NCBI RefSeq assembly: GCF_000430995.1 | Contig: NZ_HF952018.1 | Location: 421,938 to 485,937 of the forward strand | Source: Thermobrachium celere DSM 8682 | GTDB taxonomy: Bacteria; Bacillota; Clostridia; Clostridiales; Caloramatoraceae | Length of the DNA stretch: 64,000 nucleotides | Direction: 5' to 3' | In this document: positions 21,184 through 44,052 of the stretch, one piece after another | How the letters are laid out: each line of letters begins with the position of its first letter | Position numbering within the stretch: position 1 is the first letter of the stretch | Notes under the pieces: model-generated | Seen by the model: only the letters and a program-made list of their open reading frames with translations | Told to the model about the DNA's origin: nothing | Databases searched by the model: none | Made by a program: the position numbers and the translations under genes

Positions 21184-21460
21184 GTAAATTAATAGGAATT
21201 AAACACTGTGAAGAGGGAAAGTAGATTATATGAGGCTTTACAGAGAGGAACTCCTAGGCTGAGAGAGTTCTAAGCTGAATATAATTGAAGTGCCCCTTGG
21301 AGTGTTAGGCCGAAATTAAAGTAGGCTGTTACGGGTTCTCCCGTTATAGAGATAGGGCATGTTGGTGCCTGAAGACGAGATGGGCTTTTTTGCCTAAGCA
21401 GAGTGGAACCGCGGAAGTATACCTTCTGCCTCTGTATATACAGAGGTAGAAGGTTTTTTT
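21184..21460 (+). promoter_or_regulatory. T-box leader (cysteine specifier)
   Basis: The invariant T-box sequence is seen at 21401-21414 (GAGTGGAACCGCGG). The terminator hairpin, with ACCTTCTGCCTCTG and its complement, fills 21421-21452 and is followed by a run of seven T. In the upstream stem I region the specifier is probably TGC at 21291-21293 (GAAGTGCCCC), a cysteine codon, in accord with cysK and cysE downstream. Uncharged tRNA-Cys would stabilise the antiterminator and allow transcription. The specifier was chosen partly from gene context. Confidence 0.93.
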
Positions 21461-41371: not shown

Positions 41372-41400
41372 TTGACAAAACTTGCAATTGTTTATATAAT
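41372..41400 (+). promoter_or_regulatory. Promoter of the metNIQ operon
   Basis: Perfect TTGACA (41372-41377), 17 bp, perfect TATAAT (41395-41400), 24 bp before the first riboswitch. Confidence 0.85.
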
Positions 41401-41423
41401 CTAAATCAAGAATTAAATAACAA

Positions 41424-41552
41424 GCTCTTATCGAGAGAGGTGGAGGGACTGGCCCGATGAAGCCCGGCAACCTGCGAAAAGCAAGGTGCCAAATCCTGCA
41501 GCGAAAGCTGGGAGATGAGAGAGGATGCCTCTTTCATCAAAGAGGTTTTTTT
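41424..41552 (+). promoter_or_regulatory. SAM-I (S-box) riboswitch, first copy
   Basis: S-box core is clear: CTTATCGAGAGAGGTGGAGGG, then CTGGCCCGATGAAGCCCGGCAACC, GGTGCCAAATCCTGCAGC and GGGAGATGAGAG closing P1. The terminator GCCTCTTTCATCAAAGAGG with seven T ends it at 41552. Binding of S-adenosylmethionine favours termination and so blocks metNIQ. Confidence 0.96.
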
Positions 41553-41598
41553 ATTTGTATTACAGGTAAATAATATAATTTATTCAAATAAATAACAA

Positions 41599-41728
41599 GC
41601 TCTTATCGAGAGAGGTGGAGGGACTGGCCCGATGAAGCCCGGCAACCTGCGAAAAGCAAGGTGCCAAATCCTGCAGCGAAAGCTGGGAGATGAGAGAGGT
41701 AAGCCTCTTTCATCAAAGAGGTTTTTTT
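41599..41728 (+). promoter_or_regulatory. SAM-I (S-box) riboswitch, second copy
   Basis: Same aptamer sequence as the first copy at 175 bases distance, with its own complete terminator (CCTCTTTCATCAAAGAGG plus T-run at 41705-41728). Transcripts must pass both switches to reach metN. Confidence 0.96.
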
Positions 41729-41799
41729 ATTTGTATCACAGGTAAATAATATAATTTATTCAATAAAATAACAATAAATAATTTTAAAGGGGTGTCAGC

Positions 41800-42576
41800 A
41801 TGATAGAAATAAAAAATTTAAAAAAGAGCTATTTGGTAAACGGAAAAAATTCAGAGGCCTTAAAAGGAATTAATTTAAAAATTGAAAAGGGGCAAGTTTT
41901 TGGAATTATAGGTAAGAGTGGTGCAGGCAAATCAACACTTTTAAGGTGTTTAAATTTACTTGAAATTCCAGATGAAGGTCAAATAATAGTTGAAGGTGAG
42001 GATATAACAAAATTTAATAAAAGAGAGCTTAGAGAGTATAGAAAAAATGTAAGCATGATTTTTCAGCATTTTAATCTGCTTTCAAATTCTAATGTGTATA
42101 AGAATGTTGCATTTCCACTTGAGATAGCAGGATATAAAAGGGAATATATAGACAAAAGAGTTAAGGAACTTCTAGAGATTGTAGGACTAGAAGACAAAGA
42201 AAGAGAATATCCTTCAAATCTGTCAGGAGGCCAAAAACAGAGAGTTGCAATAGCAAGAGCACTTGCTAATAATCCTAAAATACTTCTTTGTGATGAGGCA
42301 ACCTCAGCCCTTGACCCTCTTACAACAAAACAGATTTTAGATTTATTACTCCATTTAAATAATAAATTTGGTTTAACGATAGTTTTAATTACTCATGAAA
42401 TGGATGTTGTTGAAAGAATATGTAGTCATGTTGCAGTTATGGAAAATGGTTTGATTGTAGAAGTGGGCAAAAAGGATGAGGTATTTAATAGTCCTAAGTC
42501 TAAGACATTAAAACAGTTTCTACGAAGCCAAAATGAAGGAGTAATATATTTAGACTTAAAAGAAAAGGCGATGTAA
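41800..42576 (+). CDS. metN: Methionine ABC transporter ATP-binding protein, short form
   Basis: 258 residues. Walker A GKSGAGKST is at 38-46, signature LSGGQ at 141-145, Walker B ILLCDEATSALDP, and the H-loop ITHEMDV. Powers import of methionine together with MetI and MetQ. The protein stops shortly after the nucleotide-binding domain (usual MetN ~340 residues), so the C-terminal NIL/ACT-like domain that mediates inhibition by intracellular methionine is absent. GGGGTGTCAGC precedes the ATG. Control by two tandem SAM-I riboswitches upstream. Confidence 0.95.
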   Translation: MIEIKNLKKSYLVNGKNSEALKGINLKIEKGQVFGIIGKSGAGKSTLLRCLNLLEIPDEGQIIVEGEDITKFNKRELREYRKNVSMIFQHFNLLSNSNVYKNVAFPLEIAGYKREYIDKRVKELLEIVGLEDKEREYPSNLSGGQKQRVAIARALANNPKILLCDEATSALDPLTTKQILDLLLHLNNKFGLTIVLITHEMDVVERICSHVAVMENGLIVEVGKKDEVFNSPKSKTLKQFLRSQNEGVIYLDLKEKAM

Positions 42577-42589
42577 GGAGGTTGAAAAT

Positions 42590-43240
42590 ATGAGTGAAAT
42601 TGTTGAATTAGTGGTACCTTCATTTTTAGATACTTTGTATATGGTTGTGTTTTCTACATTTTTTTCAATAATCTTAGGGGCTCCCCTTGGAGTGTTTTTA
42701 GTATTAACTGATGAAGAAGGGTTACTTAAAATGCCAAAGATTAATTCAGTAATAGGAACAATAATAAATATAACAAGATCAATACCATTTATTATTTTAA
42801 TAATAGTACTATTTCCCCTTTCAAGAGTTATTGTAGGCACAACAATAGGAAAAGAAGCTGCAGTGGTTCCATTATCCATTGCAGCAGCCCCCTTCGTTGC
42901 AAGGGTGGTAGAATCTGCTCTAAAGGAAGTAAATAAAGGTGTAGTAGAGGCAGCAGTATCATTAGGTGCTTCTATACCTCAAATAGTTTTAAAGGTTTTG
43001 ATAAAGGAAGCTCTTCCAGGTCTAATATTAGGTATTACTTTAACAATTGTAAATATAATAGGATATTCTGCAATGGCAGGAGTTATAGGGGGTGGTGGAA
43101 TAGGTGATTTAGCAGTAAGGTATGGGTACCAAAGATTTAGAACAGATATTTTAATAGTAACTGTTATAATTTTAGTACTCATTGTTGAAATAACACAAAG
43201 AACAGGAAATTATCTTGCAAAAAAAATTGACAGGAGGTAA
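42590..43240 (+). CDS. metI: Methionine ABC transporter permease
   Basis: 216 residues with five to six membrane segments. The EAA loop is ...EAAVSLGASIPQIVLKVLIKEALPGLILG. Typical MetI length and signatures (YSAMAGVIGGGGIGDLAVRYGYQRF). GGAGGTTGAAAAT precedes the ATG; 14 bases after metN. Confidence 0.95.
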   Translation: MSEIVELVVPSFLDTLYMVVFSTFFSIILGAPLGVFLVLTDEEGLLKMPKINSVIGTIINITRSIPFIILIIVLFPLSRVIVGTTIGKEAAVVPLSIAAAPFVARVVESALKEVNKGVVEAAVSLGASIPQIVLKVLIKEALPGLILGITLTIVNIIGYSAMAGVIGGGGIGDLAVRYGYQRFRTDILIVTVIILVLIVEITQRTGNYLAKKIDRR

Positions 43241-43245
43241 TAATT

Positions 43246-44052
43246 ATGAATTTAAGAAAATTTACTTCAGTAATAGTATGCGTTTCATTATTACTTACAG
43301 GAATTACAGGATGTCAAAAGAAAGAAACTAAGAGTGTGAAAAAGATTGTAGTTGGAGCTACTCCAGTTCCTCATGCAGAAATTTTAAACTACATAAAACC
43401 AAAACTTAAAGAAAAGGGAATAGAATTAGAAGTTAGAGAGTTTACAGACTATGTTACTCCAAATACAGCACTAAATGATAAGCAAATAGATGCAAATTTC
43501 TTTCAACATGTTCCATATCTTAATGAGTTTAATAAGGAAAAGGGATTAAATCTTGTTTCAGTTGCAAAGGTACATGTTGAGCCAATGGGGGCTTATTCAC
43601 AAAGGATAAAAAATAAAGAAGAGATAAAGGATGGAGCAGTAATAGCAATACCAAATGATGCAACAAATGAAGGAAGAGCACTTTTGCTTTTACAAAAGCA
43701 AGGTCTTATTAAACTTAAGGATAATAGTTTAACACAAACTCCAAAGGATATAGTTGAAAATCCTAAGAATATTCAGTTTAAAGAATTAGAAGCAGCTCAA
43801 CTTCCAAGGGTTTTAAAGGATGTTGATTTAGCAATTATAAATACTAACTATGCCCTTGAGGCAAAATTAAATCCTGTAAAGGATAGCCTATTTATTGAAG
43901 ATAAGGACTCACCATATGCAAATGTACTTGTAACAAGGGAGGACAATAAGGATAATGAATTAATTAAAGAACTTATAAATGTACTGCAATCAGAGGATGT
44001 TAGAAAGTTTATAGAAGAAAAGTATCAAGGAGCAGTAGTTCCAGCCTTTTAA
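43246..44052 (+). CDS. metQ: Methionine-binding lipoprotein
   Basis: 268 residues. Lipobox GITGC gives lipidated C23. The MetQ/NlpA pattern is clear: VVGATPVPHAEILNYIKPKLKEKGI, TDYVTPNTALNDKQIDANFFQHVPYL, KVHVEPMGAYS, and the C-terminal GAVVPAF. Extracellular methionine capture. AGGAGG precedes the ATG 6 bases after metI. Confidence 0.96.
   Translation: MNLRKFTSVIVCVSLLLTGITGCQKKETKSVKKIVVGATPVPHAEILNYIKPKLKEKGIELEVREFTDYVTPNTALNDKQIDANFFQHVPYLNEFNKEKGLNLVSVAKVHVEPMGAYSQRIKNKEEIKDGAVIAIPNDATNEGRALLLLQKQGLIKLKDNSLTQTPKDIVENPKNIQFKELEAAQLPRVLKDVDLAIINTNYALEAKLNPVKDSLFIEDKDSPYANVLVTREDNKDNELIKELINVLQSEDVRKFIEEKYQGAVVPAF

Follow-up and report, generated by a model that had tools for sequence, protein, structure and literature searches.

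Tandem, near-identical SAM-I riboswitches before metNIQ in Thermobrachium celere: a predicted pair of serial termination gates and its probable history

The metNIQ operon and its leader

The window, as the whole 64,000-nucleotide stretch of Thermobrachium celere DSM 8682 DNA analysed here is called, contains a methionine transport operon of three genes on the forward strand. The first gene, metN (41800..42576), encodes the ATPase of a methionine ABC transporter, a protein of 258 aa whose best NCBIfam match, TIGR02314, is covered over positions 1-246 of 343 and lies under the full-length cut-off. A Pfam search of this MetN found no NIL domain, so that the C-terminal NIL portion is lacking. Next are metI (42590..43240, + strand), encoding the permease, with PF00528 and a best NCBIfam match to NF008049 MetI (198.8 bits, with the cut-off at 212), and metQ (43246..44052, + strand), encoding an NlpA-type methionine-binding lipoprotein with PF03180 and with TIGR00363 above its cut-off. 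A pair of riboswitches stands before these methionine transport genes, a location that suits the SAM-I class. The only other SAM-I riboswitch of the genome precedes an open reading frame that reads as metK. Elsewhere in the window is a T-box leader (RF00230, 106.5 bits, 21199-21436).

Both riboswitches were found by cmscan as RF00162 matches on the + strand, at 41425-41521 and 41600-41696, with a start-to-start distance of 175 nt. Each scores 86.2 bits (E 5e-19), where the gathering score is 44.4, and is full length, extending over model positions 1-108, which places both in the SAM-I (S-box) family. The two aptamers are identical at 97 of 97 nucleotides. The sequence-only reading of this DNA had described two complete, near-identical S-box aptamers with their own terminators, 175 bases apart before metNIQ, and this description is borne out. 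Repeat alignment divides the leader into unit 1 (41415..41589, 175 nt) and unit 2 (41590..41765, 176 nt), both on the + strand and each composed of aptamer, expression platform, and linker. All differences between the copies lie outside the aptamers: the antiterminator loop is ATG in copy 1 and TAAG in copy 2, a single linker base differs (T/C), and one spot close to the linker end is rearranged, with 3 of 49 linker columns differing in total. Direct reading shows that the 9-nt word AAATAACAA opens both units, and a third copy directly after unit 2 (41766..41774, + strand) is possibly the footprint of a duplication junction.

A sigma-70-type promoter, TTGACA-17-TATAAT, lies at 41372..41400 on the + strand with 12 of 12 consensus bases, and matching sequence is found in three relatives (G001, G003, and G004, introduced below). 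It is the only + strand promoter of consensus quality directly before the leader, and a promoter scan of the leader found none on the + strand between the two units. The pair thus consists of same-ligand switches, as judged by their identical aptamers, in one leader, on one strand, and under one promoter, which is the arrangement termed pseudo-cooperative.

Two predicted termination gates

Each aptamer is followed by its own expression platform, and neither the antiterminator nor the terminator is shared between the units. In both units GATGAGAGAGG comprises the 3' strand of P1 and the next three bases, and its pairing with CCTCTTTCATC gives an antiterminator of 11 pairs. The antiterminator hairpin of copy 1 (41514..41538, + strand, loop ATG) has a folding energy of -14.4 kcal/mol at 37 C, and that of copy 2 (41689..41714, + strand, loop TAAG) has -15.3 kcal/mol. 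The hairpin scan located an intrinsic terminator at 41527..41552 in copy 1, with the form GCCTCTTT-CATC-AAAGAGGT and a T-tract, and another at 41703..41728 in copy 2, both on the + strand. The terminator reads CCTCTTT-CATC-AAAGAGG followed by a T-tract in both units. Three terminator-like hairpins with a T-tract occur in the scanned region against 0.5 expected from shuffles; one belongs to each unit and the remaining one to the upstream gene.

In the predicted folds of both units the antiterminator can coexist neither with P1 nor with the terminator. The ligand-free ON fold is favoured over the combination of aptamer and terminator by 2.4 kcal/mol in unit 1 and 2.8 kcal/mol in unit 2. As modelled, the design of each unit is that of the usual SAM-I OFF switch acting on transcription. 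The equilibrium fold of the whole 351-nt leader includes some predicted pairing between the copies. A functional inter-copy structure was considered and rejected: the inter-copy fold gains only about 5 kcal/mol over separate units in a total of 113, and such pairing is unlikely to be of consequence because folding is co-transcriptional.

The leader is, with high confidence, a tandem (“pseudo-cooperative”) SAM-I pair controlling metNIQ, for which we infer the predicted SAM binding, termination in vivo, and the dose response. The predicted folds most likely correspond to two SAM-dependent termination gates acting in series. Transcription would start from one promoter, and the polymerase would reach gate 1 first. 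At low SAM, GATGAGAGAGG, as the 3' strand of P1, would pair with CCTCTTTCATC to form the antiterminator, and the polymerase would go on; with SAM bound, P1 would be held, the terminator would form, and transcription would halt. Polymerases that pass gate 1 would then meet the near-identical gate 2. Expression would equal the read-through probability of gate 1 multiplied by that of gate 2, and shut-off of the transporter would for this reason be tighter and need less SAM, at the price of some maximal expression.

The effect of the second gate was modelled with independent gates whose single-gate read-through falls from 0.9 without SAM to 0.05. Under these settings the leak of the pair is 0.0025 against 0.05 for a single gate (the leak squared), and maximum read-through is 0.81 against 0.90. 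Half-response comes at 0.45 rather than 1.0 times the single-gate constant, an approximately two-fold lower SAM threshold. The effective Hill coefficient of the product-of-gates model is 1.16 at the 0.9/0.05 settings and 1.08-1.19 overall. The main gain predicted from a second gate is lower leak and earlier shut-off, and the predicted steepening is small. Of the two benefits put forward in the sequence-only reading, the lower leak follows if both gates work, and the steeper response to SAM holds in direction but is slight in size. With identical aptamers and slightly different antiterminator loops, the leader is a natural pair suited to measuring the contribution of a second gate.

Tandem SAM-I leaders in known systems and in relatives

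Tandem SAM-I riboswitches have been described before. Sherlock et al. (2022, PMC9481103) listed 164 double and one triple SAM-I riboswitches and called them likely pseudo-cooperative. These likewise combine two SAM-I switches in a single leader, each having an expression platform of its own, and there is no difference in kind from the present pair, whose copies lie at the most identical end of the 71-100% range of aptamer identity among the pairs examined here. Morales and Merino (2025, PMC12452182) found metN, metI, and metQ of Bacillota to be enriched for contiguous riboswitches, with 41-42% of these metNIQ cases being SAM-SAM and 2% SAM-SAM-SAM; riboswitch, arrangement, and operon are the same as in the window. 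That study takes metNIQ as metal-ion transport, from the COG name, and methionine uptake is more likely for a metN-metI-metQ operon under SAM riboswitches. Since these two papers describe tandem SAM-I riboswitches, the latter at metNIQ, the pair is a documented arrangement in its most typical place. Other tandem systems are more distant. The tandem TPP riboswitches of Bacillus anthracis, as presented in PMC2258182 from Welz and Breaker (2007), are two independent same-ligand gates with a more digital response; the serial gates are alike, and the ligand and class are different. Tandem glycine aptamers (PMC9481103) are also two related aptamers in tandem, but they share one expression platform, whereas in the window each aptamer has its own terminator. 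With two terminators present, the leader is not of the glycine-type cooperative kind.

The wider survey places tandem leaders repeatedly at methionine uptake. Of 17 leaders before methionine-uptake genes in the family, 6 are tandem, compared with none of the 22 other SAM-I leaders (p 0.004, with shared ancestry uncorrected); the leaders were counted by hand, and three of undetermined context were put among the “other” leaders. The order was scanned with two tandem patterns, the shorter-gap one of which misses the Caloramator spacing while the other has a longer second gap, and 10 of 218 genomes matched. A wider-spaced pair in G015 brings the number to 11. All 11 pairs precede metN, or an operon holding metQ or metN; the pair of G014 stands before an aminotransferase-metQ operon, and that of G015 before metN with one gene between. 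The view of the sequence-only reading that such a duplicate is uncommon in methionine uptake does not agree with these 11 pairs, with the 164 published doubles, or with the published enrichment at metNIQ. Across the class, the short-gap pattern, which does not reach the Caloramator spacing, gave 0 matches in 391 genomes. Outside the order, contig pattern scans found a pair in Brevibacillus before a gene reading as homoserine dehydrogenase, and tandem pairs in three Planococcus. The Planococcus pairs (L036, L037, L039) are old and diverged, 72-74% identical, and the gene behind them does not look like methionine uptake. Within-pair aptamer identity is 71-100% across the pairs examined, and the top of this range (97-100%) is taken by the three Caloramator pairs and Fonticella.

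Five Caloramator genomes form the genus set, in which G000 is the genome of the window. A comparison of the leader in relatives, proposed in the sequence-only reading, gave a mixed result: the pair is present before metN in three of the five, with a spacing of 175 nt in G000 and 176 nt in G001 and G003, and a single copy in the other two (G002 and G004). The sequence-only reading had also suggested that the repeat could recombine to one copy, and one copy is what these two genomes carry. The named carriers of the pair, found by pattern scan and corresponding to G001 and G003, are Caloramator proteoclasticus DSM 10124 and Caloramator MAG SKW144. The single copy of G002 comes from a fragmented, 64%-complete genome and could be a collapsed repeat. 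In G004 (L044), a SAM-I leader precedes a broken metN, cut approximately 84 nt (~28 codons) past its start by an apparent transposase insertion; the junction, on the reverse strand, lies approximately 280 nt beyond the start of the riboswitch and is followed by transposase-like open reading frames.

The relatives also bear on whether both gates are in use. In the G001 pair, 1 of 129 aptamer and terminator columns differs against 15 of 49 linker columns (p 9e-9); for the G003 pair the corresponding counts are 3 of 129 and 14 of 49 (p 1e-6). The same contrast is not significant in the window's own pair (p 0.35), whose copies are either too young or too strongly homogenised to show it. The case for gate conservation therefore comes from the relatives, where homogenisation could have had a share in it. 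Because the gates of G001 and G003 stayed intact while their surroundings drifted, the comparison speaks for both gates being in use, unless conversion by itself accounts for their likeness.

Probable age and possible homogenisation of the copies

The pair probably arose before the present species separated, an age read from its distribution: because two other Caloramator species have it in the same place, either the pair itself or at any rate a tendency to form it goes back further than these species. The metNIQ tree, ((G000,(G001,G003)),G002), is weakly supported (68 and 57) and agrees with a single duplication in the ancestor of G000, G001, and G003. Homogenisation or a second duplication, at a later time, probably explains the near-identity of the window's copies. 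The fresh duplication claimed in the sequence-only reading is possible for the window's genome, whose linkers are alike though they do differ at 3 of 49 columns, but the pair as such is common to two other Caloramator species.

Different parts of the unit appear to have different histories. Between G001 and G003, linkers follow position, with 9 differences between same-position copies and 14-17 otherwise, while the aptamers follow species, with three species-type sites, at which the two copies of one species match and are distinct from those of the other, and no position-type site. The ratio of species-type to position-type sites is 3:0 in the aptamer against 1:7 in the platform (p 0.024, on few sites). 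G193 and G195, of a second genus, have ratios of 3:3 against 1:14 when substitutions only are counted (p 0.053). The combined p over the two genera is approximately 0.01, from a post hoc test on few sites that was devised after seeing the data and in which gene conversion and parallel change in variable loops look alike. The Planococcus pairs have no species-type pattern, and their informative aptamer sites follow position. The G193 and G195 pairs (L065, L066) stand before metN and have clearly position-specific terminators; the aptamers of G195 are 90% alike within the pair, closer than to their orthologues, which makes this genus a second candidate for conversion limited to the aptamer.

These patterns tentatively suggest, at somewhat less than an even chance, that concerted evolution at metNIQ is limited to the aptamer: gene conversion would repeatedly equalise the sensors, while the linkers, and in the genus of G193 and G195 the terminators as well, would keep position-specific histories. 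If so, the gates would stay matched in SAM affinity yet be free to differ in termination behaviour. Should aptamer-limited homogenisation hold in more species, it would offer an explanation, open to test, for the continued match between tandem riboswitches. The possibly new point suggested by the comparison is an evolutionary one only, namely this aptamer-limited gene conversion. None of the terms duplication, gene conversion, and homologous recombination appears in the main text of PMC12452182, and a text search of the open literature found no paper on riboswitch concerted evolution or gene conversion of tandem riboswitches.

The window's own linkers are alike and fit either whole-unit conversion or a second duplication. 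A history of two separate duplications, the first in the ancestor shared by G001 and G003 and the second, later, in the window's lineage, with function as described for two serial gates, comes close to an even chance. The window's genome has 3 linker differences within the pair and 8 to 17 to other species, and the position signatures common to G001 and G003 are mostly missing in G000. However, one duplication with whole-unit conversion in G000 fits equally well, column 215, near the linker end, has a position signature in G000, G001, and G003, and the weak support of the metNIQ tree also stands against two events.

A recent neutral tandem duplication in the window's strain, by slippage at AAATAACAA words, of no benefit and bound for loss, is improbable. 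It would explain why AAATAACAA occurs at all three unit boundaries, why the single-copy genomes G002 and G004 have similar A-rich words flanking the unit on both sides, why the window's copies differ at few sites, and why their linkers resemble each other more than they do the linkers of relatives. It does not account for two other species with the pair in the same place, gates intact and 14-15 of 49 linker columns different, nor for the recurrence of tandem pairs at metN/metQ operons across several genera of the order. Assembly is error-prone at short repeats of near-identical sequence, and one real copy doubled by the assembler, a concern raised in the sequence-only reading, would be an error of this kind; it is very unlikely because the copies differ in antiterminator loop and linker and the same pair is present in the separate public assemblies of Caloramator proteoclasticus DSM 10124 and MAG SKW144. 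Least probable of all, and negligible, is a two-input gate in which unit 2 senses a ligand other than SAM, since both aptamers are identical in every base, even though SAM-I-like variants for another ligand exist (a spermidine class, according to PMC10853860).

Relatives such as G012 have a MetN with a C-terminal NIL domain, unlike that of the window. A MetN without NIL should lack the methionine feedback attributed to this domain. The idea that a second gate compensates for a NIL-less MetN was rejected because tandem pairs also stand at NIL-containing MetN operons (G012, G137, G153, G120, G193, and G195), and MetN of NIL-less length also follows single riboswitches (L016 and L018).
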